DNA from: Methanosarcinales archaeon
GTDB lineage: Archaea; Halobacteriota; Methanosarcinia; Methanosarcinales; Methanoperedenaceae
DNA: 64,000 nt
Reading direction: 5' to 3'
Assembly (NCBI GenBank): GCA_905339155.1
Contig: CAJPFJ010000015.1
Location: 1-64,000, forward strand
The notes beneath the pieces are model-generated. The model was given only the letters and a program-made list of their open reading frames with translations, was not told the origin of the DNA and ran no database searches. Of this stretch, positions 1 through 52,876 are shown piece by piece (the first letter of the stretch is position 1; each line of letters begins with the position of its first letter). Both the position numbers and the translations under genes were made by a program.

Positions 1-1941
1 GGAATTGATGCCAACAACAGGATCATACATTTGGTCTTCAACATTCCAGTTCCAGATGCTGTAATAGCTGTCATCGATCGCATTAAGCATCGTTTCAGCA
101 GCAATCGAATTTTCACCGGAGGTTCCGATCAGGTTCCATCCCTTGGTTACACCAAGAGAAGGAGGTATAAATGCTCCAGTCTTCTTTTCCAGTGCTGGCA
201 TAGTCTTTGAAGTGTCTATTTTTATCAAGTAGCCATTCAAAGGCGTGAAATTCGTCACAGGTGACATCCATTGCTTCCCAACCGGATCCCATGCGTAAAG
301 CTCCGTGTAATCCGTGCCTTTCACAAGGCCCCGTAATACATAATCAACGCTTGCGTTGTTCAGCATGTAAGGTACTGATATGAATTTCCAATTGAGTTCG
401 GGTGTTCCTGATACGTTCACTTGTCCATCGATCACCTGGGAATTGTTTATCTGGCTTGTAGTGCTATTCATTAAGACCGCATTTGCCAGATCAAGAACAT
501 AAATTCCTGATGCGCTGCCCCTGGCTTTGAATTGCACGGTTATAAATGTGCCATTTACAGGTGCTGCCGCGCCGGATGTTCTGGCAAGTCCGAATTTTAC
601 CTGCCCCGGGCTGATTCCGTTTCCAGGCTCAGCCAGTGCATCCGCACCCAGCAGGTTTCCTGAGGTAATTGTATTGGCGGTCAGGTTTGTCTTATCGTAG
701 TTCAGTTCAACATGTGCAAACTGCAAATTTTCGCTCCCCGAATCGATGTTCACGCTAAAAGTGAACGTCGCACCGGGTGCAACTACCAGAGTTTGAGTAG
801 GGAACCCATATACTTTTACTCCGCCAGTACCCGGTGGGGGGGTAGGCGTTGGTGTTACCGTTGGTGTCGAAACCGGGGTTCCTGATATGTTCACCTCTCC
901 ATCATTGATCGTAACATTGGATATAGTTGATGTAATATTATCCATTAATTTTACATTATCCAGATCAAGTTTAGGCTTCCCCGATGCATTGCTGTTGGCT
1001 GTGAATTGCAGGGTGATAAATGTGCCATTTACAGGAGCTGCACTGGAATTCCTGGCAAGCCCGTATTTCACCTTCCCCGGACTGATTCCACTTCCAGGCT
1101 CTGTCAATGCATCCGCACCCAAAAGGTTTCCTGAGGTAATTGTATTGGCTGTCAGGTTTGTCGTATCATAGTTCAGTTCAACATGCGCAAACTGCACATC
1201 AGTGGTTCTTGAATCGATTTTCACTGTAAAAGTGAAAGTCGCACCGGGTGCCACATCCTGTGTCTGAGGCGACACGCTAACTGTGACCGCTGTTGGTGAA
1301 GGCGTTGCCGTTGCAGTTGGCGTTGCCGTTGCAGTTGCTGTCGGTGTTGCCGTTTCAGTTGCCGTTGCAGTTGGTGTTGCAGTTGGTGTTGTAGATGGTA
1401 CCACCATCACCTCTCCAAGCATTTCCGGATGGATTGAACAATGATACTTGAAAATACCAGTTTCATTGAATGTAAATTCAAAGGTTTGTCCCGGACTAAC
1501 ATCGCCTGAATTAAAGATATTTGTGTCACTTATTACAGTATGTGCAACACTATCATTGTTCGTCCAGATCACAGTCGTTCCCTCAGAAATATTTATTTGA
1601 GCCGGATTGAACGCAAGATTCTTGATTTCAACTCCAACTACGGGTTCAGGTGTTGCCGTTGGTGTTGCCGTTGCAGTTGGCGTTGCTGTTGCAGTGGGTG
1701 TTGCCGTTACAGTTGGCGTTGCCGTTGCAGTTGGTGTTGCCGTTGTTGTCGGTGGAAGTTGTCCATTCGCTTTATAGTACTCCCCAGCAGAAGTTAATGT
1801 TCCTCCGCCACTTGTACTGACATGACATACTCCACAACTTGGAGCCACTGAAGGAACATATGAAGGAAATGCCGATGCTCCTTGCACAATTACCAGGGCC
1901 AATATCAGCATCACTCCTATTCCTAAGATCTTCTTATTCAT
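1..1941 (-). CDS. Secreted cohesin protein with c-heme and cupredoxin domains (3' end cut by window edge)
   Basis: Open reading frame of 647 codons that begins at 1941 and runs off the window without a stop. A Shine-Dalgarno GAGGTGA lies six bases before the ATG. Residues 1-24 are a signal peptide ending ASA. Residues 36-40 are CGVCH, a c-type heme motif. A Thr/Ala/Pro linker (about 63-98) leads to a plastocyanin/amicyanin-like domain (about 101-182) with type 1 copper ligands His134, Cys168, His171 and Met174 (motif CSIHPEM). A second Thr/Ala/Pro linker is followed by two near-identical cohesin-like domains (about 224-362 and 380-505), then a Trp-rich C-terminal region (WKFISVP, GWNLIG) typical of archaeal surface proteins. 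It should sit outside the membrane, carry heme and copper, and bind dockerins. Its upstream neighbour on the same strand ends in a dockerin. Domain calls are from motif reading; cohesin is the least certain in detail. Confidence 0.85.
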   Translation of the reverse strand, partial: MNKKILGIGVMLILALVIVQGASAFPSYVPSVAPSCGVCHVSTSGGGTLTSAGEYYKANGQLPPTTTATPTATATPTVTATPTATATPTATATPTATPEPVVGVEIKNLAFNPAQINISEGTTVIWTNNDSVAHTVISDTNIFNSGDVSPGQTFEFTFNETGIFKYHCSIHPEMLGEVMVVPSTTPTATPTATATETATPTATATATPTATATPSPTAVTVSVSPQTQDVAPGATFTFTVKIDSRTTDVQFAHVELNYDTTNLTANTITSGNLLGADALTEPGSGISPGKVKYGLARNSSAAPVNGTFITLQFTANSNASGKPKLDLDNVKLMDNITSTISNVTINDGEVNISGTPVSTPTVTPTPTPPPGTGGVKVYGFPTQTLVVAPGATFTFSVNIDSGSENLQFAHVELNYDKTNLTANTITSGNLLGADALAEPGNGISPGQVKFGLARTSGAAAPVNGTFITVQFKARGSASGIYVLDLANAVLMNSTTSQINNSQVIDGQVNVSGTPELNWKFISVPYMLNNASVDYVLRGLVKGTDYTELYAWDPVGKQWMSPVTNFTPLNGYLIKIDTSKTMPALEKKTGAFIPPSLGVTKGWNLIGTSGENSIAAETMLNAIDDSYYSIWNWNVEDQMYDPVVGINS

Positions 1942-1979
1942 ATTTAGTCACCTCTCACTGCAATCGCTTAATATTAAAA

Positions 1980-2026
1980 AAAAGGAAAGAGAATAGACCA
2001 TTGCTGGTCTATTTTGATTTTCCTTT
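1980..2026 (-). terminator. Stem-loop between dockerin and cohesin genes
   Basis: AATAGACCA (1992-2000) pairs perfectly with TGGTCTATT (2005-2013) around a TTGC loop, and outer A/G- and T/C-rich arms (AAAAGGAAA, TTTCCTTTT) can extend it. It lies directly after the stop of the 1681-residue dockerin gene and before the ribosome binding site of the cohesin gene, so it is probably a terminator or attenuator that uncouples the two. Confidence 0.6.
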
Positions 2027-2056
2027 TCACTTTTTGTATTCATAGTCTATCCCTCT

Positions 2057-5000
2057 TTAGCTTGCATTGCAGCTTGTTCCATATTTGGACGCGAACAACA
2101 CGAAGTCAGCGCTGTCTATACTACCGTTATTATTCAAATCGGCTTTGACATTGAACCTCGGATCTCCGCTAGCTGAATTGTATGCACTGGCGAATATTAC
2201 GAAGTCGGCGCTATTTATGGCGCCATCGCCGGTTATGTCGCCCTGGCATGTTGTTCCTCCTGGTGTTGCTGTGGCTGTTGCTGTAGCTGTTCCCGTGGCT
2301 GTTGCTGTAGCTGTTCCCGTGGCTGTTGACGTGGCTGTTGCTGTTGGTGTTGCTGTTGTTGATAATGCATTAGCAATGGCCTGTATCTCTGCCTGGGTAA
2401 GGAACGAGAGTGAGCTCATAGCCGGGATTCCATTGATAGCATTCTGAATATTCGCTGCTGTGCGATCGCGCTTGCTTGAAGTGGCCAGAGGGCCGTGGCA
2501 GCTTGCACTTGCGCAGTTGCTGGCGTAGAGCGCGGCTCCGTCGATTGTCGGTCCTGGTGTCTGTGTTGGTGTCGGTGTTGTTGGTGTCGGTGTTGTCGGT
2601 TCTGGTGTTATTGAAGTATTATTCTGCGCGTAGATTTCCTTCAGTTGGCCCTGGAACCTTGGCTCCTTGGCTTCCAATACATAGGTTATTTCCAATGGAT
2701 TCGCTGAAATCTTCTTGCCTATCTTATCCTGCATATTCGCAGGTAAAGTTTGATTTCTCAATACATCCACAATTATCTCATGGTTCATATTGAAAGGCGG
2801 CAATTCCGGTAAGATTTCTTCAGGTGACCAGAATCCCAGATGCTTGCCGTAAAGCTTGATCTCTTCTTTTGGCAGCTTCTGTCTTATCACTATGTACTTG
2901 AACTGTTCGATTCCATTGACAACTTTGGTCTTTATTGCGACAACATTATAGAATACTTCGTCCACGATGAAAGCCTTCTGGTTCCATCTGGGGTTAGCTC
3001 CTATATTTGCGAGGGTCTGTCCGAACATCCTTCCTACCTCGATTACTGCTTGATTATTGTTTTGGTCAACAGCAATCAGTTTGATATAGAAGGGTCCTTT
3101 GACGTCGTTCATTCCTCTCTGGTACTTCGCAGCATCTCCAACTTTCAATACCTGGTCCCTGGCGCAATTCTGTGAACCTCCGCCTTCATTGTCACATATG
3201 TCATATGCGATGCTCGCTGGCGTAGTCATTACATCTTTTAGTGTCACAACATTATCAAAGAACTGCAATTTGTCATTCTTTGAAAGTTTCTTGTTGTCAA
3301 GCACAAATACAATGCTCTCGTCACCGCTTACATCTGTTCCATCGGTGTCCAATGATGACATTATTCCATCGCCGTCTATGTCCATGTTCAGGGTCTTTTC
3401 GCTTTCTACCTTTACCGCGTCTTTAACTCCCTTATTCGCGGCATCAAAGCTGTTAATTCCTCTGTATGAATTAGTTGCCTGGTGCGCCATTGGTATCAGG
3501 ATATGACTGCCGCTCTTTACCTCTATCGGCATTCTGATATCATTCAATGTCATGTAGGCAAATTCCTGCTCAATCGCCGGGGCATATGTATCGCCAAGGC
3601 TGGGGTCATTATTATGCTCCCTGATCCTATTGCCCGCCTCTAACTGATCCTGGATGGCTTGTTCGTCATCAAGTTGAACAGTTGTAACATATCGGCAAGT
3701 CTTTCTCGGGTCTAATGGTTTACAGGCTTCTATAACAACATCCCAGCGTCCATTGGCTTGCGCCTGGTAATCGTCTTTAAACAATGCTTTTTCATACCAC
3801 ATGCGCTTAAAGACTTTTTCCTGGGGTCTCTGGACTGTATTGCCATTTGATGGATCAAGGAATATCAATTCCGGATAGCCCTGGTTATGATCCATTATAG
3901 CTGGATTGAATGTTACAAAGTCCTTTCTCGGCGACTGCCCGGACTGCGGATAGAATGGCGCTTCAGGATCTGTGTAGGGCGCCTGTTCTGGTTTCTTATT
4001 TGTTACTGGATCTATCACAGTAAGATCTCCTGGCCCTTCATCAAAGTAGCCATAAAGTCTCAATGTTCCATCATTGATGTACAGACCTTGGGCGATTGAT
4101 GCATTATGCCAGAATTTCAGGCGGTCTCCTTTAATGACGATTGGCGTCTCATTTCCGGCAACATCTCCGTCCCAGACACTGATAACTGATTCCGGCGCCC
4201 TGAATCCAGTTGTTACCAGATATTTCTGTCCACTTGGCAGCACGAATTCTGTGTACTGGAAAGGCATTGTGTTGAACCATTCTACTACCCAGGCTTCTTT
4301 ATTTCCGGTCTGGTTGTAGATTTCCTTGAGTTCGCCCACAAATCTCTTCTCTTTGGCTTCTTTTACATATGTTATTGCCAGTGGTCGTGCTTGAACCTTA
4401 TTTCCGATCTTTGCCCTGTCCTGCGTCTCCAATATGTCCACAATTATCTCATGTTGCATATTGAAAGGCGGCAGTTCAGGTAATATTTGATTGATTTCCC
4501 AGACTTTGAGATGCTTGCCGTAAAGTTTGATCTCTTCTTTGGGAAGCTTCTGCCTGATCACTATGTATTTGAACTGTTCTACTCCGTTGACCACTTTAGC
4601 CTTTATTCCTGCCACATTATAGAATACTTCGTCCACGATGAAAGATTTCTGGTTCCATCTGGCGTTAGCTCCTATATTTGCAAGGGTCTGGCCGAACATC
4701 CTTCCTACCTCGATTACTGCTTGATTATTGTTTTCGTCAACAGCAATCAGTTTGATATAGAAGGGTCCTTTGTCATCTTTCATTCCTCTCTGGTACTTCG
4801 CAACCTGTCCAACGGCTAAATTCTGGTTCTTTTCGCAATTCGTTGAATCTCCGCCTTCATTATCACAGACATCGTATACAATGCTCTGCGGGGCCGTGAA
4901 AACACTCCTTAGTGTCACAACATTATCAAAGAACTGCAACTTGCTATCCTTTGATAGGTTCTTGTTGTCAAGCACTAATACAATACTCTCATCACCGCTC

Positions 5001-7102
5001 ACATCTTTACCGTCTGTGTCCATTGATGACATTATTCCATCGTTGTCTATGTCCATACCAAGAGTCTTTTCGCTTTCTACTCTTACCGCATCCTTCACAC
5101 CCTGGTTAGCTGCATCAAAGCTGTTAATTCCCCTGTATGAATTAGTTGCCTGGTGGGCCATGGGTATTAAGATGTGACTTCCATTCTTTACTAATATGGG
5201 CATTCTGAGATCATTCAGCGTCATGTAGGCAAATTCCTGCTCTATTGCAGGCGCATACGTGTCGCCAAGAGCGGGGTCATTATTATGCTCTCTGATTCTA
5301 TTACCCGCAATTAACTGGTCATTGATGGCTTTTTCATCATCAAGTGGTAGTGTTGTTACATATTGGCAAGTCTTTCTCGGGTCTAATGGCTCGCATGCTT
5401 CGATAACAACATCCCAGCGTCCGTTGGCTTGCGCCTGGTAATCATCTTTAAACCATGCTTTTTCATACCACATGCGCTTAAAGACTTTTTCCTGGGGTCT
5501 CTGGACTGTGTTGCCATTTGATGGATCAAGGAATATCAATTCCGGATAGCCCTGGTTATGATCCATTATAGCTGGATTGAATGTTACAAAGTCCTTCCTT
5601 GGTGACTGATTGGACTGAGGATAAAACGGCGCTATCGGATTAGTGTATGGCGCCTGTTCTGGTTTCTTATTTGTTACTGGATCTATAGCATTTAGATCTC
5701 CGGCTCCTTCATCAAAGTAGCCATAGAGTTTCAATGAAGCTATCAGCGTCTGAGTGTTTCCTCCATTAAGTGTCTGAGTGTTTCCTCCAATAGCGTTGAC
5801 ATAGAGATCATCAGTGATTGTTGAATTACTCCAGAACTTCAGGCGATCCCCTTCATGGACTGCCAGTGGAGTTGGTACGCTGTCAAATATTTTCGTTCTT
5901 GCTTCCGGTGCCATGAACCCGCTTGTTACCAGGTAATCCTGATCTTCGGGTAGTGTGAACTGGGTGTACTGCCATGGCATTGTATTGATCCATTCCACGT
6001 TCCAGTGTTCCTCACTAGGAGGTGGTGGCGGCGTTGGTGTCGGTGTTGGGGTTGAAATTGTTACAGTCTCTGTTGCCTGTTCACTTGGGAACTCTGGGGC
6101 AGTTATATCAGTAGAGTTTATCACCACGTCAGTATTTGTTACTGGATCGTAATACGTCGGATTGCCGTGACCAAACGCCGTATTTACGAAAGTTCCTGAT
6201 GTATTATAGGTCTTCGTACATGTAAACGTCGCTGTAGCGCCTGGCTCCAGGACATTCAATAATCCCAGTGGTTGCTGTTTTGTAAATGGTGTACCTACTA
6301 GCGTTGGTGTGCAGTTACTATCGGTCACATGCACATTGGCCAGGTTTACATTACCTGTGTTTTTTTCCGTGTATGTATATGTGGTGGTAAAAGGAAGTTC
6401 GTTTCCGAATTTGGGATTAGCGGTCTTTGTTAGGATGGTGTTTGGTATCATCTCTTTTAAAATTACGCCCACTAGCTGGTTTGAGTTCGCCCCAACATCC
6501 CCTTCAACTTGGTGGACACACTTACCACTGGGACAAGTCACTACAGCATTTGCGGTCGCTACTTCAACGCCAGGGTTAACATCCGCTTTCCATTGCATCG
6601 AAGGAACAAAGATCGCTCTTGTTCCAAAAACACTATTGTTATTGCAGAAACTAGCATTGACTTGTTCCGAGCTATAATAGCAGGTGTCTTCAGTGCCATC
6701 GTCTTTGTAGCTTCTATCAGAATCAAGAAGTATTGGTCCATCGGTAGGATTACCATTGTTGTCGGGTTTGAAGAAGTTTATTGTAACCCCATCACCTGTT
6801 CCGTCTGAAGAGAAAGCAGGGCCGACATTACATGCTCCTGGATCGCCGCCGGTTCCTGCCAGGACTCCGAAATTGAACACTGTTTGCCCATTCGTTCCTG
6901 CAGTTGGTATAACGGTTGTTGACCGAATTTTTACCGAGTTGGCAGTGCAATTAGGGGGGTCAATGGTTGCCTGAACCGGTATTGAGGCCAATAACAATAC
7001 TGCAAGTACTGCAGTAATAATTCCAATTCTTTTCATTGATTCTATTCTTGGAGAAACTGCAAGTAATGCAGTTAATATTCCTGTTCTACTTTTCTTTTTC
7101 AT
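2057..7102 (-). CDS. Large secreted protein: duplicated surface domain, CX4CH cytochrome c, dockerin
   Basis: 1681 residues. The start at 7102 has a strong GGAGGAG ribosome site; an internal Met at residue 23 begins a cleaner signal peptide (MKRIGIITAVLAVLLLA) but has no such site. After export come an N-terminal region, a DUF11-like segment (about 215-335), a Thr/Pro linker, and two homologous blocks of about 560 residues each (about 366-930 and 932-1490) that share long identical stretches and each hold a Ca-binding-like DIDxDG motif. A Thr/Pro linker precedes a small class I cytochrome c domain (about 1522-1581): CASASCH is an unusual CX4CH heme motif, and IPAM offers a distal Met. After a Thr/Ala linker, residues 1619-1681 form a type I dockerin with two Ca-binding F-hand repeats (DITGDGAINSADF, DLNNNGSIDSADF). 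I do not recognise the repeated block by name; it may be S-layer related. The downstream gene encodes cohesins. Confidence 0.85.
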   Translation of the reverse strand: MKKKSRTGILTALLAVSPRIESMKRIGIITAVLAVLLLASIPVQATIDPPNCTANSVKIRSTTVIPTAGTNGQTVFNFGVLAGTGGDPGACNVGPAFSSDGTGDGVTINFFKPDNNGNPTDGPILLDSDRSYKDDGTEDTCYYSSEQVNASFCNNNSVFGTRAIFVPSMQWKADVNPGVEVATANAVVTCPSGKCVHQVEGDVGANSNQLVGVILKEMIPNTILTKTANPKFGNELPFTTTYTYTEKNTGNVNLANVHVTDSNCTPTLVGTPFTKQQPLGLLNVLEPGATATFTCTKTYNTSGTFVNTAFGHGNPTYYDPVTNTDVVINSTDITAPEFPSEQATETVTISTPTPTPTPPPPPSEEHWNVEWINTMPWQYTQFTLPEDQDYLVTSGFMAPEARTKIFDSVPTPLAVHEGDRLKFWSNSTITDDLYVNAIGGNTQTLNGGNTQTLIASLKLYGYFDEGAGDLNAIDPVTNKKPEQAPYTNPIAPFYPQSNQSPRKDFVTFNPAIMDHNQGYPELIFLDPSNGNTVQRPQEKVFKRMWYEKAWFKDDYQAQANGRWDVVIEACEPLDPRKTCQYVTTLPLDDEKAINDQLIAGNRIREHNNDPALGDTYAPAIEQEFAYMTLNDLRMPILVKNGSHILIPMAHQATNSYRGINSFDAANQGVKDAVRVESEKTLGMDIDNDGIMSSMDTDGKDVSGDESIVLVLDNKNLSKDSKLQFFDNVVTLRSVFTAPQSIVYDVCDNEGGDSTNCEKNQNLAVGQVAKYQRGMKDDKGPFYIKLIAVDENNNQAVIEVGRMFGQTLANIGANARWNQKSFIVDEVFYNVAGIKAKVVNGVEQFKYIVIRQKLPKEEIKLYGKHLKVWEINQILPELPPFNMQHEIIVDILETQDRAKIGNKVQARPLAITYVKEAKEKRFVGELKEIYNQTGNKEAWVVEWFNTMPFQYTEFVLPSGQKYLVTTGFRAPESVISVWDGDVAGNETPIVIKGDRLKFWHNASIAQGLYINDGTLRLYGYFDEGPGDLTVIDPVTNKKPEQAPYTDPEAPFYPQSGQSPRKDFVTFNPAIMDHNQGYPELIFLDPSNGNTVQRPQEKVFKRMWYEKALFKDDYQAQANGRWDVVIEACKPLDPRKTCRYVTTVQLDDEQAIQDQLEAGNRIREHNNDPSLGDTYAPAIEQEFAYMTLNDIRMPIEVKSGSHILIPMAHQATNSYRGINSFDAANKGVKDAVKVESEKTLNMDIDGDGIMSSLDTDGTDVSGDESIVFVLDNKKLSKNDKLQFFDNVVTLKDVMTTPASIAYDICDNEGGGSQNCARDQVLKVGDAAKYQRGMNDVKGPFYIKLIAVDQNNNQAVIEVGRMFGQTLANIGANPRWNQKAFIVDEVFYNVVAIKTKVVNGIEQFKYIVIRQKLPKEEIKLYGKHLGFWSPEEILPELPPFNMNHEIIVDVLRNQTLPANMQDKIGKKISANPLEITYVLEAKEPRFQGQLKEIYAQNNTSITPEPTTPTPTTPTPTQTPGPTIDGAALYASNCASASCHGPLATSSKRDRTAANIQNAINGIPAMSSLSFLTQAEIQAIANALSTTATPTATATSTATGTATATATGTATATATATPGGTTCQGDITGDGAINSADFVIFASAYNSASGDPRFNVKADLNNNGSIDSADFVLFASKYGTSCNAS
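2626..6015 (-). repeat. Tandem ~1.7-kb intragenic duplication
   Basis: Positions about 4311-6015 and 2626-4306 encode two homologous blocks, each starting with a W-x-V-E-W-x-N-T-M-P motif and ending near LKEIYxQ. Long DNA stretches are nearly identical, for example around 3500-3970 and 5170-5640. Copy 1 also has a small tandem duplication (GGNTQTL twice, near 5745-5790) absent from copy 2. The similarity suggests a fairly recent duplication or gene conversion. Confidence 0.85.
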
Positions 7103-7509: not shown

Positions 7510-8613
7510 CTACCTGTTTCTTAAGAAGGGAGCAATCCCACCAGTTGCGATAGTGAATACATCACCTGGAATTGTCTTTACTGTTTGCTGTGCCTGTATG
7601 TCGTCATACCAAATACAACGGGTTGTACTTGGGTTATTACATCTTATTGATACACGCCATAAATTTCCATCGCCAGAATATATATGTACGTCCTCACTAA
7701 ATGATAATGAACTTTTCCATATATTGGGTTCGGATGCTGTTGAATATCCTTGAGGCAATGCCTGATAATCTGGAATTCTTCCGCCAATGAAATTTACGAA
7801 GTCCTGTTTTGTCTTTTGTTGTATTGGTTCAGGGGTTGGAGCAGGTGTTGGTGTAAGTGTTGGAGTAGATGTTAGAGTAGGAGTAGGTGTTGGAGTTGGT
7901 GTTGGCGTAGGGGCTATATATGTTGTTTTAAGATAAGGAGCAAGTGCGTTTGTTGCTGCAGTAAACACATCATTTGGAATTGTATCAGTTAATATGTTCG
8001 AACTATCGTCTCCATAAGTTATAATATTAGAAGCTATACCAACATTCCACAATATTCCAGCGCTATTTATATGCATATAAGCAATAGGGTAAGTTCCAGG
8101 AGTTATCCATATATCGGGAGTTTTATCAGTCCACCCTCCATGATGCATTGAGCTAAAATTTATGGTTCTTCCATTAATGAAATTTACGAAATCCTGTTTC
8201 GTCTTTTGTTGTATTGGTGAAGGGGGTATATATGTTGTTATAAGATAAGGAGCAAGTGCATTTGTTGCTGCAATAAACACATCATTTGGAATTGTATCAG
8301 TTAATGTGTTCGAACTATCGTCTCCATAAGTTATAATATTGGACGCTATACCAACATTCCACAATATTCCAGAACTATTTATATGCAGATAAGCAATAGA
8401 ATAAGTTCCCGGAGTTATCCATATATTGGGAGTTTTATCCGTCCACCCTCCGTGATACATTGCGTCAAAATTTATGGTTCTTCCGTCTATGAAATTTACG
8501 AAATCCTGTTTCGTCATTCCATTGCTATATGCTAATGTCGGGCTGGCATTGATCAGTAAAACGAGAATTCCCAATACTGCTAACAATACATGATTTGTGC
8601 ATCTTCCATTCAT
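7510..8613 (-). CDS. Secreted protein with three repeated domains
   Basis: 367 residues. A ribosome site GTGAGG precedes the ATG. Residues 1-28 form a signal peptide (MNGRCTNHVLLAVLGILVLL, cleavage near TLA). Three repeats follow, each opening with TKQDFVNFI(D/N/G)GR. Repeats 1 and 2 (about 34-130 and 139-234) are nearly identical and contain WITPGTY, ILWNVGIASN and TIPNDVF. Repeat 3 (about 267-367) is divergent but keeps the opening and the closing GDVFTIATGGIAPFL. A Thr/Pro linker (about 238-264) separates repeats 2 and 3. There is no membrane anchor or catalytic motif I can identify. It lies upstream of, and on the same strand as, the dockerin and cohesin genes and probably belongs to the same cell-surface inventory. 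Function unknown. Confidence 0.8.
   Translation of the reverse strand: MNGRCTNHVLLAVLGILVLLINASPTLAYSNGMTKQDFVNFIDGRTINFDAMYHGGWTDKTPNIWITPGTYSIAYLHINSSGILWNVGIASNIITYGDDSSNTLTDTIPNDVFIAATNALAPYLITTYIPPSPIQQKTKQDFVNFINGRTINFSSMHHGGWTDKTPDIWITPGTYPIAYMHINSAGILWNVGIASNIITYGDDSSNILTDTIPNDVFTAATNALAPYLKTTYIAPTPTPTPTPTPTLTSTPTLTPTPAPTPEPIQQKTKQDFVNFIGGRIPDYQALPQGYSTASEPNIWKSSLSFSEDVHIYSGDGNLWRVSIRCNNPSTTRCIWYDDIQAQQTVKTIPGDVFTIATGGIAPFLRNR
7915..8530 (-). repeat. Two ~300-bp near-identical direct repeats
   Basis: Positions about 7915-8215 and 8228-8528 encode the first two copies of the TKQDFVNFI domain and differ at only scattered bases. The similarity at synonymous positions indicates a recent tandem duplication. 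Confidence 0.75.
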
Positions 8614-8701: not shown

Positions 8702-8845
8702 GTGCTAATAATAATCATCATCATAGAAAAAGTACTACTCCGGGATTCTGATTGGCACAAACTTGAGGAAATAAACAAAGAAATTCCTGTCTTGACACAT
8801 CATCTGGAGGAGATTCCTTTTTTTTACAGGAACAATACTTCATAA
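8702..8845 (+). pseudogene. Possible C-terminal fragment of a lost gene
   Basis: An open frame with a possible GTG start at 8702 and stop at 8843-8845 encodes a protein-like tail (RDSDWHKLEEINKEIPVLTH, then HLEEIPFFYRNNTS). Composition is that of a real protein, but there is no promoter or ribosome site, and repeated ATCATCATAG sequence just before it suggests rearrangement. It abuts the transposase relic on the opposite strand. Family not recognised. Confidence 0.25.
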
Positions 8846-9490
8846 ATAAAGAGAATCTGAAATAAAAATAACAAGCAAAGAGCTTCGATTTTTAGAGTGC
8901 AATGTGAACTACGCAACCCTATCTTAATTAATTTTGCAGATACTTGATCTCTTTTCATGACAAAACCACATGAAGGACACGAATGTATCACCACTGATAG
9001 GTCTTTCGGAACAGAGAAACCACATATACAGGTCTGAGATGTACCTGTTGGATTAACGAATTCAACTATTTTCCCAGCATATTCTGCTTTGGTTGTTGTG
9101 AACCAGATTTCTTGATAGTTTATGAGCAAAATCCTTTCGCTGATTCCTGATTCTTCGATGTACTTTTGCTACTACGATTTTCTGCTTAGTCCTGTTCTTC
9201 GACCTGATTTTTTTCCGGCTTAACCGCTTCTGTTCCTGTGTTAGTTTATCCTCTGATTCTCTCAGGAACTTTGGCGGTTTTATCTGTTCCCCGTTGCTCA
9301 AGGTTATCAGGTCGATTAATCCAACGTCTATGCCAGTTTTGGTCTTGACCTCAACAGGAATTGAGTTATCAATTTCACATGCAAAGGAAACATACCATTG
9401 GTCAAAATCCTTCTTGATGGTGCAGGTCTTGATCTTTCCTACAATCGGTCTATGTAGAACGATCTTGAATATTCCTATTCGAGGATGCAT
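8824..9490 (-). pseudogene. IS200/IS605-type TnpB (OrfB) relic, internally deleted
   Basis: Two overlapping minus-strand frames together give a broken TnpB. The upstream frame (from about 9490) has the RuvC-like first acidic motif GIDVGLIDLITLSNG and the basic segment HRRIRNQRKDFAHKLS. The downstream frame (to 8824) has KAEYAGKIVEFVNPTGTSQT and the zinc ribbon CICG...CPSCG followed by RDQ. Between them, near 9100, the stretch that normally holds the catalytic Glu (IVVEDL region) is missing and the frame changes. The N-terminal part is also lost and replaced by unrelated sequence. It cannot encode an active RNA-guided nuclease. No TnpA partner is present. Confidence 0.8.
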
Positions 9491-9545
9491 GCGCGTCGGC
9501 GGCATTTTGAAGAGTTGTGCCCGCGCCAGTTCGTGTGCGCAGGGG

Positions 9546-9815
9546 TCAGCGGGCAGGGGATGGAACACTGATGACACGGATCGCGCGGATATTTTTCCGT
9601 TTATTATCCCCCTCCACGATCTTCTCCTTAATCTTCCCCTCAAAAAGCTCGATCAGCTTCTTATATGCAGTGATCAATTTCTGCTCCTCTTCGATTCGGG
9701 CAACGATTTCAGTCCGGGAGGGGGGCGGGATAGCATATCGAAATAGTGGCAAAAGAGATGCGATGATGTTTTTATATACTTTGTGTAATAAAACATGGGC
9801 GCAGACCCACATCAA
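9546..9815 (-). pseudogene. Fragment resembling a type I restriction subunit C-terminus
   Basis: The minus-strand frame contains IPPPSRTEIVARIEEEQKLI followed by a Lys/Glu helix (KKLIELFEGKIKEKI). This matches the conserved proline segment plus coiled coil found at the C-terminus of type I HsdS or fused methylase/specificity subunits. The rest of such a gene is absent, so this is a relic. It immediately adjoins the TnpB relic. Assignment rests on motif resemblance only. Confidence 0.45.
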
Positions 9816-9858: not shown

Positions 9859-10122
9859 ATGACTGAGAACATAGGTGTTAAAATAAGTTCTGATACGAAA
9901 ATCATTCTTGATACAATGTATCAACAATTACGCAGCAGCGGGATTAAAATTACAGAAAAAAAGATCCTTGACATTCTCATCACGAATACAGATGTGGCTA
10001 CTATAAAAAAATACTTGAAAAAAGAAGATAATACCGCCCTCCAGATGTTGAAAAAACCTGTACATTGGGGAGTTGCAGATTCTTCTGAAGATATAGATCG
10101 TTATCTTTATGGAAATCCATGA
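9859..10122 (+). CDS. VapB-like antitoxin
   Basis: 87 residues, overlapping the following PIN-domain gene by four bases (ATGA at 10119-10122). This is the usual layout of a VapBC toxin-antitoxin pair. The N-terminal half is helical and Lys/Ile-rich. The C-terminal part (KPVHWGVADSSEDIDRYLYG) is the type of extended acidic/aromatic tail that antitoxins insert into a PIN active site. A clear ribbon-helix-helix or AbrB signature is not obvious, so the DNA-binding fold is uncertain. The ATG is preceded by a short tandem GTAGAAA repeat instead of a clear Shine-Dalgarno, and the pair may be autoregulated there. It sits within a debris zone rich in mobile-element relics. Confidence 0.7.
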   Translation: MTENIGVKISSDTKIILDTMYQQLRSSGIKITEKKILDILITNTDVATIKKYLKKEDNTALQMLKKPVHWGVADSSEDIDRYLYGNP

Positions 10123-10523
10123 GCCTTCTTATTGACACTTCTGCGCTTATCTGCGCCAGAAATGCTGATGATAAAAACCATAATAAAGCGCTTGATATCA
10201 TGACCAGGGCATTAAAAGGCGAATTTGGCAAATTGTATATCAGTGATTATATTTTCGATGAGGCAGTAACTATTGCTTATATCAGAACTGGTAATAAAAA
10301 TTTTGCGAATGATATAGGAATTTTCGCAAGAACAAAACCAATCATATTTCGTTTCGTTGAGCCTATCGATTTTGAAAGAGCATGGGAAATTTATCTGCAA
10401 TTTCAAGACAAGAATTTTAGTTTCACGGATTGTACAAATATCGCACTTATGGAAAGGCACGGCTTTGATACTCTTTTCACATATGATTCTGAATTTAATG
10501 GGATTGTAAGCATGATAGGCTAA
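10119..10523 (+). CDS. PIN-domain ribonuclease toxin (VapC family)
   Basis: 134 residues, the normal VapC length. PIN-domain acidic residues are visible: Asp6 in the opening IDTSAL, Glu48 in the first helical region (FDEAV), Asp104 in SFTDCTN and Asp117/Asp123 near FDTLFTYDSEF. This set binds the divalent metal used for RNA cleavage. Translation is coupled to the antitoxin through an ATGA overlap. In the family, the toxin cleaves tRNA or rRNA when the labile antitoxin is lost; the exact target cannot be read from sequence. The gene appears intact despite broken neighbours on both sides. Confidence 0.85.
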   Translation: MSLLIDTSALICARNADDKNHNKALDIMTRALKGEFGKLYISDYIFDEAVTIAYIRTGNKNFANDIGIFARTKPIIFRFVEPIDFERAWEIYLQFQDKNFSFTDCTNIALMERHGFDTLFTYDSEFNGIVSMIG

Positions 10524-12752: not shown

Positions 12753-15700
12753 TCACATAAAATCCGCAAGCCCCTTCTGCTTCACCTTATCGCTCTCAAA
12801 CAGCGACCTCATCTCTATCTCAAGCAGCTCAAGCCTCTGCTTCGTGTAAGGCTGCACATTATACTCATCCGCAATACGCAAAGAAGTCTCAAGATACTTC
12901 CTCACCGAACCTTCATGCACGGTAAGCACGATATTCCCCCCGCACCTGGGACATGTCCCCTGCAGGGGCGGGCGCCTGTATTTGGCACCGCATTTCGTGC
13001 ATCTTACCTTCTGTTTCGAGAATGAGCGCAGGTTCCCGATAAGGTCGGGCAGGAAATGAGAATTTATAACTCTTTCTGCGACATCAGTTGGGTCCACAGC
13101 TTTTATTTTCCTTGCAAGTCCGAGCTGCGCCTCCATTTTTTCTATCATCGTCCCCAGGGTCTTGTAAGCGCTGTTCCTTGGACCGGCGGCTATATTTGCA
13201 GTATCATGGGTAAACCCGAAGCCCTCATACTGCGCCGGAGTGCCAAGCCGTCCGCTAACAGTATCCATGATCCTGACAAGGTCTTTGGCATTTGCGTATT
13301 TGAGCGTTGCTTCATAGAACGCGAGTGGATACTGGAAAAGCACATCTACATTATGCGCCTCCTTATCTACTTCATTCGGATCAATGCGCGAAGTCAGAAC
13401 AAGAGGCGCATCCATCTGCCCGCCGCGCCTGTCGGGAAGATATGAACGGGAGAAGTTCAGGAGGCCATCCATTAGCAGCATCACGCAGTCCTCGTCGCCG
13501 TCGCACTGGAATGTGGTAATTCCTGAGCAAATGAGGTTGTGATGGTTATCGACTGTCAGATTATACACATATTTATCTTCAGAGCTTATCTCTTTTTTTT
13601 CTACAACTTTATCAATGAACACATCTTCATCAAAATTGGTTCTAGTCCGGCCATCTTTAGCCAGCCATTTTTTAAGCAAATCTTGCGCATGCTTCTGCTT
13701 CTCACCAAGGAAGCCTATGTCTTCTATGAATTTTCTTGCTTCGCTGCCATATATCCTTATTTTATAAGAATTGATTAATTCCTCGTAGATAGAGTGCTTA
13801 ATTCCAAAAAACATCAGAAGGAAGGACACACCGTCTATCAGCCATTTATTTACAGAAGTTGCATTGACCTCTAAAGTGCTCTGCGAAGAGCAAGATCCAT
13901 CTCCAGTGAAATAACCTCTCAAAAATGTACTTATCTTTGCCTTTGGGAGGGCATAAACAAAGTTGGGAACCCTTTTTGTTTTCATTTCAAGATCGTTGCT
14001 TATCTTTGAAAGATGTACTCCTTCTTCGAAAACATCACTTTCTGTCCTTATCATTACGTTCTGCGCGTCTGTTATTGAAAGCAGATCAATATTCTTTTTA
14101 GGCTCGATAGGTGGTCTTTTGATGTTCCAGGGGATCAATAATTCATCTGCATCCTGCGCCCTCACCTTTTCTCCTGATCTATCCGGGAAAGTATGATCTT
14201 TTGTCACCACTATCTTTCTTCCGCTTTTGGTTCTTATTTCGACCAGCTTTTCAGGAGCAATATGTTTTGAAACATGGGTTATATCCGCCAATTCGAATGT
14301 TTTAGTTTTTATGTTGAACGCAAAAGTTCTCAGGCCGTTTATTTTCTTGATTTCAGTCCCAAAATCATCTTTTTCGGTATTTTCGATAAGGTTGCTATCA
14401 ACAAGCTCGCAGATCGTCAAAAGTTCAAAGCCCTCTCCTCTTTGAATTAATAATTTTTCATCCCCCTGGAAGCAGTTTCGTCTCTTAGCTGCATGGAAGA
14501 ACGGATGTCCATAACCAACAGACGCTGTGGTAAAGCCCGCAAGGCGGGCAAGCACTCCAGCCGAGGTGTGAGGAGCAAGCCCTATCACTAATTTTCCGAT
14601 CAGATCATCGATCTTATCGATATTATAATAAGGTTCAACTTTATAATATCTCGTTAAAAGGTCATCTATGAATCGTGCGGTTTTCAAAAGGTATTCAGCG
14701 CAATCCTTTGAAACAACAATATCCTGCACTTTGAGTTCAAGGATCTGGCTCTCATCAACCAGAGGATTTCCAAATGTGTCATTCACATAACCAAGTTCCT
14801 TAAATTTCAAAACCGAAACACCGAGTTCTCCGGGTCTTATATGCGTAAGAGGCATATCCGAGAGGTCATATCTCACAGTCCCGTCCTTGAACATCACAAC
14901 ATCATGCTTTGCCCTGAGCACCCCTTTTTCCAGTGGTTCAGGCGTCTTATTTTTTGAAGTAAGGCCAAGAACCCCTTTGGGTTTGTAAACATCGCGTTCG
15001 CCAACATTATCAAGAGCTATCTGGTATTCTGATAAGAAATCAATATTCATTTCAGTGACAGATGTAGTTTCTTTTTTGCATTTCGGGCATATCGGGTTAG
15101 TCCCGGTAAACGGGGTATTTACTTCAATTCCACATGACTCACATTTAAAAAGCGGATAAGTGAATTTTCCGCATGTGCACCTGTTCTTAAAAGTCCTATT
15201 CTTACATGCCGGACATATGCGGCTTCCAATCTGGACGTTTATTGTCCCGACTTTTCCTTTCTGGTATGTAAGTCCTGTCTGGAACTCACTACTCTTGAAT
15301 TCATTCTTTTTCTCTTTGTCAATATCGTCATCATCCACAAAATCTTTTACATCTACAAGCGACCGCCGCTTGCCTCCAGCTCCACCGATAGGGAAAAGCA
15401 CATGCGGAGCTGGTTTCATTTCACGCTTATCTGATTTCTCGGGCCGTCCCATCCGTGCGCCGATCCTGATAGGGGCGCGGGCCCTGATGGTTATCCCGCT
15501 TACTTTTGAGACCCTATCCATGATATTGGATTCCGTATTCGTCCGGTTTTTTTTAAGACTTGCATCAAGCCCAAGACATCTTATCAGGGGAAGAGGTTCA
15601 TCAATGAGAACCTGCTTCTCACGAACTATATGAGGGACAAGCAGGACTTCAAGAATGGACTTTATTTTGTTATTGATCGGGAATGAAAGTTTGTGAGAAT

Positions 15701-17180
15701 ATTTTCCATTTATCCGGATGTATTCAGACAATTGGAAAAACTCATCAATTGAAATATCATGCCAGAGGTATGTATATTCAGGATGCAGGGGCACTTTATA
15801 AGTATCTGATAAATAGAGAGCTTTTTCCCCGTTAGGATTTTTCAGGTCGCCCAGTTCCTTTATCGATGTTTTTGCAGCAAGCTCCTGGAGCCACCATTCA
15901 TAGCAATAGGATGAGGGTACAAGAGGATGGTTATTCTCAAGAAAATCCCCGAAATTTATCAGTATCTCGCCAATATCAAGGATCTGCTGCACTGCCGGTC
16001 GAATTTTTTTTGCTTCCTCTTCTGTCTTTATCCTTAGAACATCCCCATTGAACAGGCGCACAGTAGGACCATCAATTGTATCTACAGGGGCTATGCCTGC
16101 GGCTTTTCCAGGGCGCTCGACTTTTATCTGGGTGCCGGCGGCAATAAAATCATCCATCAATACCATCGTGGCTGGACTGATACCTGCGGCTGCAAAACTT
16201 GTGTTCCTGCCCCTGCCGTATCTGAGCCGGAAACCCCCTGGTCTTGAAGGGTATGAAAATACAGGTCGTCCTGCTATCAGATCCTGCAGGTACTTATCTT
16301 TGGGTTTAAGCTGGGCCGATGCATCATCGGTTTTTACAGTGACCACGAATTTATCAAGCCAGTCCCAGCCTTCAAGTTTGAGCTTATCAACGTGCTTTTT
16401 CACCTTTGGAGCCTTAAGAGCAATGCCTTCGGCAATGACAAGCGCCATGCCGCCCCTGATCCTATTCGTTTCTATGCGTGCAAGGTCGCGCCGTCCTTCC
16501 ACTTCGGCTTCCTCTGTAGGTTCACCGTCAATGCATATCGGGCAGTTCCTGACTATGAGACGTATCTCATCATCTGATGGAAGATACTGTAAATTCGCTA
16601 CGCGCCTGTATGCCGTGATCTCTTCAACGTATCTCTCAACTTCCTCAGGCCGCGGGACAAAACGTGCGATCCCCAGGTTCGCGCGCACATAATCGGCAGC
16701 CAGCACCGACAACGCCTGCGCTGTGCCCCCGGCGCTCCTTATCGGGCCTGCGTAGTAGATCCTGATATAATCGGTACCGTCATCGTTTTTTGCAAGGTCT
16801 ATCTTTGCGATACCTTCTATGGGTGCAGCCACCACGCCTTCTGTAAGTACTGCCATTGCCACCCTCACAGCAGCTTCGATGGCATCCCTGTTCGATTCAA
16901 ACTTATTTATTTCTCCTTTAGCCACAGCAATTGCCACCTGAAGCGCTGCTTCCTCACGCGACATCGTGCTTTCAAGTTCCCTGAGCTTTTTTGCGACCCC
17001 TTCGATAGAAAGGAGTTTTTCGACCCTGTCGGCAAGGTCTTTTGCAATTGGTATTTCGATTGTTGGTTTCGGGTCTGCGCCTTTTGCCCGGGCGCGGATG
17101 GCTAGCTCGATGGCACGGTTAAGCTCTGTTTCAAGAGTACTAAAATAAGAAAGCATTGCTGCGCTTGCGGCAAATTTCAT
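12753..17180 (-). CDS. polC: DNA polymerase D large subunit DP2, with intein
   Basis: 1475 codons: a host protein of 1152 residues after removing a 323-residue intein (residues 903-1225). DP2 is the catalytic subunit of the euryarchaeal replicative polymerase PolD, a double-psi beta-barrel enzyme. The polymerase site [18 protein letters not shown] is present and is the very site interrupted by the intein. Zinc-binding clusters occur at [16 protein letters not shown] and CESCGIEV...CPKC in the middle, and near the C-terminus at [12 protein letters not shown]...CPRCG. The small subunit DP1 is not in the window. A 31-residue open frame ends directly before its ATG, suggesting translational coupling. 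Identification is firm. Confidence 0.97.
13506..14474 (-). other. Intein inside polC (LAGLIDADG type, C-terminal Gln)
   Basis: 323 residues lying between host residues ...AAKRRN and CDGDED.... The first residue is Cys (CFQGDEK). Block B is VVTKDHTF with the TxxH signature. The endonuclease block [11 protein letters not shown] is a LAGLIDADG-like motif with the catalytic Asp kept, followed by FIEDIGFLG. The C-terminal blocks are [16 protein letters not shown] and ITTFQ, with a host Cys at +1. The last residue is Gln rather than Asn, as known for a Pyrococcus abyssi PolII intein at this gene, and the usual penultimate His is Phe. A second endonuclease motif is not obvious, so homing activity may be lost. 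Confidence 0.93.
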
Positions 17181-51497: not shown

Positions 51498-51583
51498 GTT
51501 TTTAACTTAACAATAAACCCATTGGCTTAAGATTATGCGACAATCTTTTAATATCTAAATAATAGACTGTGATAGGTGATAGA

Positions 51584-52876
51584 ATGACTGGAAAAATTGA
51601 TTGGTACAATGAATTCGTAGATTTGAATTACATTCCTTCAAAAGACGATTTGATCTGTTTATACTATTTTGAACCTGCAAAAGGAATTACTCAGGAAGAA
51701 GCGATAGGAAGGATTGCTTCAGAAAGTTCAGCCGGGACATGGACGACACTTCATGATTTACCTGCACGGGTAGAAAAGATAAAAGCGCGCGCATTTGAAT
51801 TTAATGGTAAATATGTAAAGATAGCTTATCCGATAGACCTCTGGGAGCCAGGAAATGCCCCGCAGCTCCTGAGCGGGATAGCAGGTAATATCTTCGGGAT
51901 GAGGGCTCTTCGGAATTTGAGGCTCATTGACGCATCCTTTCCTCAACGATATATTAAGTCTTTCAAGGGTCCAAATCACGGCATCGAAGGAATAAGGTCT
52001 TTATTGAATATCAAAGAACGCCCAATAACGGGTGCAGTGCCAAAACCCAAGATCGGCTTTAGCGCAGCAGAACATGCCGAGGTTGCATATGAAACATGGA
52101 TGGGAGGATTTGATCTTGTTAAGGATGATGAGAACCTGACTTCCACATCTTTTAACCGTTTTGAAGACAGGCTCGCTCGAATGGCCAAACTTCGGGATAA
52201 AGCCGAAAATGAAACAGGAGAGCACAAAGATGCCCTTTTGAACATCACGGGTGAAACTAAAGAAATGATACGAAAGGCAAAATTACTTCAGGATTCGGGC
52301 TGGAGGTTTGCCATGATCGATGTTGTTACCTGTGGAACAGCGTCTGTCCAGACAATGAGGGATGAATGCGGCGACATTGGATTAGCTATACACGCTCATC
52401 GTGCGATGCATGCGGCTTTTGACAGGAACCCGAGACATGGGTTAAGCATGTATTTCCTTGCAAAACTCATGCGGTTAATAGGGGTCGATGAAATTCATTC
52501 AGGTACTGCAATAGGAAAACTTGTGGGGAGCAAAAAAGAGGTGATCCAGATCGCCAGCGTGTTGCGGGACTCAAATATTCCAGCAGGGAATATGCTTTCA
52601 CAGGAATGGGGCTCAATAAAGCCGGCCCTTCCGGTTTCTTCAGGTGGTCTTCATCCGGGATTGATACCATCGGTCATGGGTATCCTGGGAAATAACTGTA
52701 CATTGCTTGTGAGCGGCGGTATTCATGGCCACCCAAAAGGAACGCGAGCAGGCGCAAAGGCAGTGATGCAGGCAATAGAAGCCTCTATGAATGGTATTGA
52801 CCTTAATGAATTTGCGGTTAAAAACAAGGAATTGAAGCAGGCGCTTGGTAAATGGGAATATTTCAGGCCAAAATGA
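51584..52876 (+). CDS. rbcL: RuBisCO large subunit, archaeal form III
   Basis: 430 residues from ATG 51584, which has GGTGAT just before it; an upstream in-frame GTG at 51569 is less likely. Catalytic residues are intact: Lys in GAVPKPKIG, the carbamylated Lys-Asp-Glu in GGFDLVKDDENL, His in HAHRAMHAAFDR, the loop 6 Lys in HSGTAIGKLVG and the phosphate site SSGGLHPGL. Form III carboxylates ribulose-1,5-bisphosphate from nucleotide salvage to two 3-phosphoglycerates. It is common in Methanosarcinales. Neither AMP phosphorylase nor the isomerase is in the window. It runs toward the convergent roadblock gene with only two bases between. Confidence 0.96.
   Translation: MTGKIDWYNEFVDLNYIPSKDDLICLYYFEPAKGITQEEAIGRIASESSAGTWTTLHDLPARVEKIKARAFEFNGKYVKIAYPIDLWEPGNAPQLLSGIAGNIFGMRALRNLRLIDASFPQRYIKSFKGPNHGIEGIRSLLNIKERPITGAVPKPKIGFSAAEHAEVAYETWMGGFDLVKDDENLTSTSFNRFEDRLARMAKLRDKAENETGEHKDALLNITGETKEMIRKAKLLQDSGWRFAMIDVVTCGTASVQTMRDECGDIGLAIHAHRAMHAAFDRNPRHGLSMYFLAKLMRLIGVDEIHSGTAIGKLVGSKKEVIQIASVLRDSNIPAGNMLSQEWGSIKPALPVSSGGLHPGLIPSVMGILGNNCTLLVSGGIHGHPKGTRAGAKAVMQAIEASMNGIDLNEFAVKNKELKQALGKWEYFRPK

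Follow-up and report, generated by a model that had tools for sequence, protein, structure and literature searches.

A conserved cohesin–dockerin gene pair with lineage-restricted heme and copper modules in a probable S-layer-like surface assembly of Candidatus Methanoperedens

The window analysed here is a 64-kb stretch of DNA that starts at base 1 of the 138.5-kb contig C15, in a 3.34-Mb genome of the genus of Candidatus Methanoperedens, and its first 7102 bp encode two neighbouring proteins on the minus strand, one ending in a dockerin and the other bearing two cohesins. Gene p2 (7102–2057) comes first on that strand and, after a gap of 115 bp, is followed by gene p1 (1941–1), which is cut by the contig end. 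We refer to the dockerin bearer p2 as gene A, to the cohesin bearer p1 as gene B, and to a membrane-stalk gene past the contig edge as gene C. The pair belongs to a conserved operon, and in this lineage both partners carry predicted redox modules in addition to their docking modules, arranged as follows (aa, amino acids; AF2, AlphaFold2; pTM, predicted template-modelling score; dN/dS, ratio of nonsynonymous to synonymous substitution rates).

2057–7102, minus strand: gene A (p2), 1681 aa, tandem-repeat, S-layer-like protein with a cytochrome c module and a terminal dockerin
6968–7036, minus strand: signal peptide of p2 by hydropathy, likely start at Met23
6134–6445, minus strand: DUF7507 domain (PF24346, 1.8e-8)
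4310–6016, minus strand: repeat R1, ~570 aa, 80% identical to R2
2603–4315, minus strand: repeat R2, ~570 aa (AF2 pTM 0.82; weak structural match to the S-layer DUF1608 of Methanosarcina acetivorans, 3U2G)
2363–2542, minus strand: predicted cytochrome c (cbb3-like) module (PF13442, 1.7e-7), heme motif CASASCH (CX4CH) at 2495–2515
2066–2248, minus strand: predicted type I dockerin with two calcium-loop repeats (DITGDGAINSAD and DLNNNGSIDSAD), both DxNxDG-type (PF00404, 3.3e-9; closest solved sequence the GH48 dockerin 2Y3N, E 2.6e-13 over 61 aa)
1–1941, minus strand: gene B (p1), protein with two cohesins preceded by an N-terminal heme motif and a cupredoxin; 647 aa lie within the window and ~683 aa make up the full length, the remainder being on contig C20 or C17
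1870–1941, minus strand: signal peptide of p1 by hydropathy, aa 1–24
1750–1869, minus strand: small, putative N-terminal c-type heme region with CGVCH at 1822–1836 (aa 36–40), recurring in Methanoperedens proteins right after the signal peptide
1393–1641, minus strand: predicted cupredoxin (type 1 copper, amicyanin-like CSIHPEM motif), aa 101–183 (Pfam and NCBIfam; PF13473 1.1e-10, PF00127 1.3e-10)
886–1275, minus strand: cohesin 1, aa 223–352 (PF00963, 5.1e-14; fold match)
412–801, minus strand: cohesin 2, aa 381–510 (PF00963, 2.1e-12), 70% identical to cohesin 1
1–396, minus strand: C-terminal domain (FISVPY...GWNLIGT), conserved in gene B of all relatives and truncated here by the contig end
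1–847, minus strand: repeat shared with the 3′ end of a cupredoxin-GSDH-CHRD-cohesin gene on contig C51, 98.1% identical

The profile match and the two EF-hand-like loops of the terminal domain of p2 identify it as a predicted type I dockerin. The heme motif of the cytochrome c module next to it has the form C-X4-CH; the closest orthologue, in the genome LFW-24, has CANCH, the difference being a 6-nt tandem duplication in p2. In p1, the cupredoxin contains the ligand motif AH...YHCSIHPEM with its His/Cys/His/Met set, which together with the profiles predicts a type 1 copper protein, and the CGVCH region, which matches no named family and lacks an obvious distal ligand, is also found at the N terminus of several further Methanoperedens proteins, in a conserved setting. 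Both cohesins were missed by a whole-protein Pfam scan and recovered once the pieces were scanned singly, and single-sequence searches of the PDB with the cohesin pair or with the R repeat returned noise only. The AF2 model of the cohesin region has a mean predicted local distance difference test score (pLDDT) of 70, with both cohesins mostly at 75–92, and its top Foldseek matches are solved cohesins (prob 1.00, target TM ~0.79, root-mean-square deviation ~2.7), including the archaeal 2XDH. The PF00963 profile and the modelled jelly-roll fold together indicate that both domains are true cohesins.

An earlier reading of this DNA from its letters (the sequence-only reading) had proposed adjacent cohesin and dockerin genes, the former combining a heme motif, a type 1 copper site and two cohesin-like domains, the latter a cytochrome c domain and a terminal type I dockerin. 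The adjacency is confirmed, as the genes lie on the same strand 115 bp apart and their pairing is kept in relatives, and the composition of p1 is borne out by Pfam, motif and Foldseek, with the two ~130-residue domains matching the cohesin jelly-roll. For p2 both named domains are recovered by Pfam; its heme motif, however, had to be corrected to the irregular CX4CH, and the two ~570-aa repeats that form most of the protein had gone unmentioned.

Gene B runs on for ~36 aa past the contig end (...TDAFIMQPGISYWVWATKDTSLPALGP), and the first 28 bp of C15 stand unchanged at the starts of contigs C20 and C17 and at the end of C51. What comes next on C20 is gene C, whose 211-aa product has a signal peptide and, at its C terminus, a transmembrane segment, and which is followed by DUF2298-like, glycosyltransferase and FAA-hydrolase genes (names read from the translations). 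As this gene order is identical in LFW-24, C20 is likely the continuation of p1, the choice between C20 and C17 resting on synteny.

The shared end on C51 belongs to a 1376-aa open frame (C51:1–4104, minus strand) with the order cupredoxin-GSDH-CHRD-SdrD_B-cohesin (GSDH 6e-39, CHRD 2e-30), whose cohesin is nearly identical to cohesin 2 of p1. The C51 copy differs from window positions 1–847 at 15 positions and by one gap, and on account of these differences and of the two continuations (C20 and C17) we rejected an assembly artefact in favour of two real loci; the last ~140 bp of the repeat are assignable to neither. Since homologues of the C51 protein in two other genomes (G005 and G013) have its N terminus in common and lack a cohesin, the cohesin tail was probably captured recently, and the common part of p1 and C51, with 98% DNA identity and a dN/dS of about 0.14, fits recent capture by an oxidoreductase-like surface protein. 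This arrangement could also be read as a docked oxidative enzyme complex, in which p2, by way of the shared cohesin tail, gathers a glucose/sorbosone-dehydrogenase-like enzyme and its electron acceptors (cupredoxin and heme). Such a complex would suit the domain content of the C51 protein and its cohesin-free homologues, of which that in G005 carries CXXCH motifs, but the C51 arrangement is known from a single genome, many proteins with the GSDH fold do not act as sugar dehydrogenases, and p2 has a single dockerin and hence holds one cohesin protein at a time. We consider this an improbable account of the locus.

The gene pair itself recurs in other Methanoperedens genomes and extends to other archaeal families. 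The repeat protein is encoded in 4 of the 31 genomes of the genus (BLZ2, STD1_19, LFW-24 and the window genome), and at all four loci a cohesin gene lies directly downstream of the repeat gene and is followed by gene C. A GTDB search with the repeat alignment added the Methanosarcinaceae genome STCSWMC_2, GoM-Arc1 GB37, one ANME-1 genome, Methanolobus species, Anaerolineae and one Thermodesulfobacteriota genome, and for these wider loci we built cohesin and dockerin profiles from the sequences of the genus. A repeat protein with a terminal dockerin, next to a protein with two or three cohesins, is encoded in STCSWMC_2 and at nearly all Methanolobus/SBSPR1A loci, and the A-B(-C) order is found in STCSWMC_2, in GB37 and in five Methanolobus/Methanosarcinaceae genomes. 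The dockerin of M. vulcani B1d is visible by eye and below the profile score; that of GB37 is found by Pfam (1.1e-6), and the twin repeats of its neighbour are cohesin-like to look at, with no profile score. In the Anaerolineae, cohesins and dockerin share one protein or sit on neighbouring ones, and in ANME-1 the A-B pattern is degenerate. Gene C can be aligned from Methanoperedens to Methanolobus and GB37, and has one, C-terminal, transmembrane segment; the gene B proteins of these loci have none beyond the signal peptide.

Two further observations concern these distant loci. The ~570-aa repeats of the Anaerolineae metagenome-assembled genomes (L154–L159) are distant relatives of ours, at about 26–35% identity, and transfer between archaea and Chloroflexi is possible. 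Gene B of Methanolobus KhS (L165:9477–10568) has, by eye, an apparent fasciclin (FAS1)-type domain between its cohesins, which suggests adhesion.

Across the relatives, dockerin and cohesin types change together and the rest of both genes does not. The R repeats of the window are 89% identical to those of LFW-24, 80% to STD1_19 and 49% to BLZ2, whereas its dockerin is 78% identical to that of BLZ2 and 27% to that of STD1_19, and its cohesins are 71–73% identical to those of BLZ2 and 27–35% to those of STD1_19 and LFW-24. Gene B of BLZ2, when compared to STD1_19 and LFW-24, is 81–83% identical in the C-terminal domain and 29–35% in the cohesins. In a tree of 39 cohesins those of the window, BLZ2 and C51 group with Methanolobus (96/90), and those of STD1_19 and LFW-24 form a separate clade (98/96). 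The partial Spearman correlation of dockerin and cohesin identity given R identity is 0.75 (permutation p 0.0016), a statistic that is easily over-read, as there are nine loci and, in essence, a single deep switch behind it. The simplest reading would be one deep exchange of both lock-and-key halves within otherwise orthologous genes, and because both halves switched while their surroundings did not, A and B are very probably cognate cohesin–dockerin partners.

The genome contains a second cohesin/dockerin cluster, on contig C30 (C30:80025–82129; L007:11792–15546), with one protein that has both modules, one dockerin protein, and two proteins that each have a single cohesin and a hydrophobic segment at the C terminus. 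Its presence allows for a model in which the p2 dockerin pairs with the C30 cohesins and the p1 cohesins with other dockerins, p1 and p2 being neighbours without functional significance. The matched type switch, the adjacency kept across families and the position of the C30 cohesins in a distant clade all argue against this model, and we consider it very unlikely.

While the docking modules belong to known families, the ~570-aa repeat gives no Pfam match in either copy, including none to PF07752 (DUF1608). Its AF2 model (pLDDT 76.6, pTM 0.82) has as best PDB fold match the DUF1608 S-layer domain of M. acetivorans MA0829 (3U2G; prob 0.77, E 3.9e-3), the other listed matches being at 0.21 or below. 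Profile comparison does not support this likeness: hhalign of the repeat against the PF07752 profile gives a probability of 0.5%, and a PDB profile search with the repeat returns nothing. We therefore rejected membership of the Methanosarcina S-layer family, and the weak structural hit counts against a firm S-layer assignment. Separate PF07752 S-layer genes are present in 12 of the 12 genomes tested, and viral contigs searched for R repeats or cohesins yielded nothing. The protein is best described as S-layer-like in architecture and possibly, going by the model, in fold, and the product of gene A is probably a surface-lattice or coat protein. A related architecture is seen in genome G005 (L081:6886–12204), where a 1773-aa protein has several DUF1608-like S-layer domains (by eye) and a C-terminal dockerin.

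Taken together, the observations are best explained by a conserved S-layer-like surface assembly, held together by twin-cohesin clips, onto which redox modules were recently grafted, and we hold this explanation to be probable. The product of gene A would be an exported rod of two S-layer-like repeats with a type I dockerin at its end, and that of gene B an exported clip whose two cohesins bind the A dockerin; with two cohesins, one B could hold two A, or one A and another dockerin protein. Judging from the families, binding would be calcium-dependent, as is established for such modules, archaeal ones included (PMC9012536). The transmembrane end of C is the sole membrane anchor seen, and the product of gene C therefore probably fixes the assembly to the cell. 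The computation establishes the domains, the operon, its co-varying docking modules and the restriction of the redox modules to one lineage; assembly by A and B is well supported, with physical binding and the two-to-one geometry as inferences. In the window lineage a c-type heme module would have been added beside the A dockerin, and a heme motif and a type 1 copper domain to B, where they lie N-terminal to the cohesins behind Thr/Pro/Ala linkers. Given these positions, the cofactors of A and B would come to lie near each other on docking and, if the sites are loaded, the surface assembly could relay electrons stepwise, one heme or copper centre at a time.

To place the redox modules we surveyed 81 cohesin- or dockerin-bearing open reading frames (ORFs), mostly of this genus and 17 of them open-ended, for CXXCH, CX4CH and cupredoxin. 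Only five of the 81 carry a redox module (p1, p2 and the C51 protein in the window genome, p2 and the C97 protein in LFW-24), confined to two closely related Methanoperedens genomes, and in the wider A-B-C loci no CXXCH occurs in ORFs of at least 150 aa outside LFW-24. By their distribution the redox domains are patchy, apparently recent additions in these two genomes. The cytochrome–dockerin fusion of p2 recurs in LFW-24 p2 and in C97, a second such fusion there with the motif CANCH, and the heme module adjoins the dockerin in all three known cases; the cupredoxin–cohesin fusion recurs in the C51 protein. The cupredoxin has a dN/dS of about 0.22 (p1 versus C51), indicating clear constraint.

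Elsewhere in the genus the p2-type cytochrome module is present in several copies per protein, with CXXCH. Surface proteins of the genomes G030, G020 and G018 (L177–L179) are strings of the small cytochrome c module with 4 to at least 9 CXXCH each, and in G030 and G020 these strings of monoheme modules adjoin a NapC/NirT-like multiheme gene. In G022:C69 (L145) a dockerin gene, a membrane-anchored twin-cohesin gene and a six-heme (cytochrome c7-like) gene stand in a row, an independent case of a multiheme cytochrome being associated with a cohesin/dockerin pair.

Several findings weigh against an electron-transfer role for the assembly. The core lacks redox domains in every relative except LFW-24; the heme motif of p2 is CX4CH, whereas the module copies read elsewhere in the genus carry CXXCH; and the p2 cytochrome module has a dN/dS of about 0.6, which from two sequences only indicates weak constraint. 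The p2 orthologue of LFW-24 (L076:7003–7743) keeps one of two dockerin loops, while the C97 protein has both, which weakens the case that the heme-bearing protein must dock in LFW-24. An S-layer cannot be spanned by one or two single hemes and one copper alone, and the window offers nothing like the stacked hemes of a multiheme-cytochrome electron conduit, as it encodes no multiheme cytochrome and a single CXXCH among its ORFs of at least 100 aa. The irregular motif and weak constraint of the p2 heme module fit a purely structural or adhesive surface coat, or a cell–cell adhesion lattice, in which heme and copper were carried along as passengers by the domain shuffling that Methanoperedens surface proteins often undergo and have little or no part in electron flow. 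Such a coat is further consistent with retention of the redox-free core in methanogens and Chloroflexi, with the module shuffling evident in the 98% identical cohesin tail on C51, and with adhesion being the published guess for the cohesin–dockerin proteins of anaerobic methanotrophic archaea (ANME) and sulfate-reducing bacteria (SRB) (PMC5244752, PMC10553843). However, the five redox ORFs are limited to two related genomes, largely to this system and to both of its partners, a pattern more suggestive of selection than of noise; purifying selection acts on the cupredoxin, and the constant placement of the heme module beside the dockerin is likewise not what passengers would suggest. On balance we give the purely structural account a chance somewhat short of even, and that the redox modules serve electron transfer is a tentative proposition on the present sequences, a structural role with passenger domains and an electron-transfer role being about equally likely. 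The fuller version, a plug-in electron-handling surface layer in which S-layer-like rods are connected by cohesin–dockerin joints and single-heme and type 1 copper carriers at the joints wire the subunits, is more doubtful still.

The sequence-only reading had viewed the pair as a cellulosome whose catalytic cargo was replaced by electron carriers. The type I dockerin–cohesin chemistry is indeed that of the clostridial cellulosome, and the p2 dockerin is closest to a cellulosomal GH48 dockerin, but this view is not supported: neither protein has glycoside hydrolases or carbohydrate-binding modules (Pfam finds no such family in p1, p2 or the C51 protein), and there are two cohesins rather than a long scaffoldin. 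We therefore rejected cellulosome-like degradation; what is conserved as cargo is a large repeat protein, S-layer-like in character, that methylotrophic methanogens and Chloroflexi also have. Another parallel is the pair of Archaeoglobus fulgidus, archaeal modules outside cellulose degradation, which is non-cellulosomal and includes the cohesin structure 2XDH matched by p1 (Bayer 1999, Peer 2009, Haimovitz 2008, cited in PMC9012536). Here, unlike there, the dockerin sits on a tandem-repeat S-layer-like protein, a third stalk gene is present, and heme and copper modules are found on both partners. The S-layer proteins of Methanosarcina (DUF1608, PF07752; MA0829, 3U2G) share with gene A tandemly duplicated, beta-rich surface domains and the archaeal order, and differ in the family evidence given above.

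The sequence-only reading had also taken such a system to be undescribed, which holds in part. Cohesins and dockerins of ANME, including S-layer proteins with dockerins in ANME-2c, are inventoried in PMC9012536 and PMC5244752, and adhesion is the usual suggestion for them and for those of SRB partner bacteria (PMC10553843). The scaffoldin-like ANME proteins (PMC9012536) and SRB-partner complexes (PMC10553843) resemble our system in coming from related archaea and in having multiple cohesins per protein; the available passages of these reports give domains and adhesion or partnering, and contain neither the A-B-C operon, nor its Methanolobus/Anaerolineae spread, nor the cytochrome and cupredoxin fusions. 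One sentence in PMC9605863 describes a Lilac Borg extracellular protein, ethylbenzene dehydrogenase (EBDH)-like, with heme-binding and cohesin domains, which likewise ties heme and cohesin in one extracellular protein to Methanoperedens. That protein is EBDH-gamma-like and the sentence names no adjacent dockerin partner, whereas here c-type motifs and type 1 copper lie on a conserved pair. Another single sentence reports Geobacter genes combining dockerin and cupredoxin (PMC6199725). For archaeal cohesins and dockerins with cytochromes or cupredoxins, the open-access literature thus offers domain inventories and single sentences at most, and in it we found no description of the A-B-C operon, its Methanolobus/Anaerolineae spread, the matched exchange, or cytochrome–dockerin and cupredoxin–cohesin partners.

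Further gene content indicates that the window is chromosomal, as it includes a RuBisCO large subunit (51569–52876, plus strand; PF00016 6e-81), MCM, CDC48, a tRNA-splicing endonuclease and a proton-pumping antiporter subunit. Upstream of p2 lie an exported 367-aa protein with three ~110-aa repeats (KQDFVNFI.GR...) of no known family (7510–8613, minus strand), a broken OrfB_IS605/TnpB transposase remnant (8824–9815, minus strand; PF01385 1.4e-22) adjoined by a PIN-domain toxin–antitoxin-like pair (9859–10523), and a DNA polymerase II large subunit (DP2)-like protein with an apparent intein, read by eye (12753–17180, minus strand).

To the question of what archaeal cohesins and dockerins do outside cellulosomes, this locus offers a concrete, repeatable and testable answer. 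The three-gene operon is present in culturable Methanolobus, where surface localisation and genetics are more feasible than in ANME, of which no pure cultures exist, and the two cohesin/dockerin types provide a ready test of specificity and possibly orthogonal parts for protein assembly. The Methanoperedens version, with cofactors on both sides of the joint, is a testable route for electron transfer across an archaeal surface layer without giant multiheme cytochromes; if the plug-in layer were true, Methanoperedens would have an extracellular electron path built from exchangeable parts instead of one large multiheme cytochrome.

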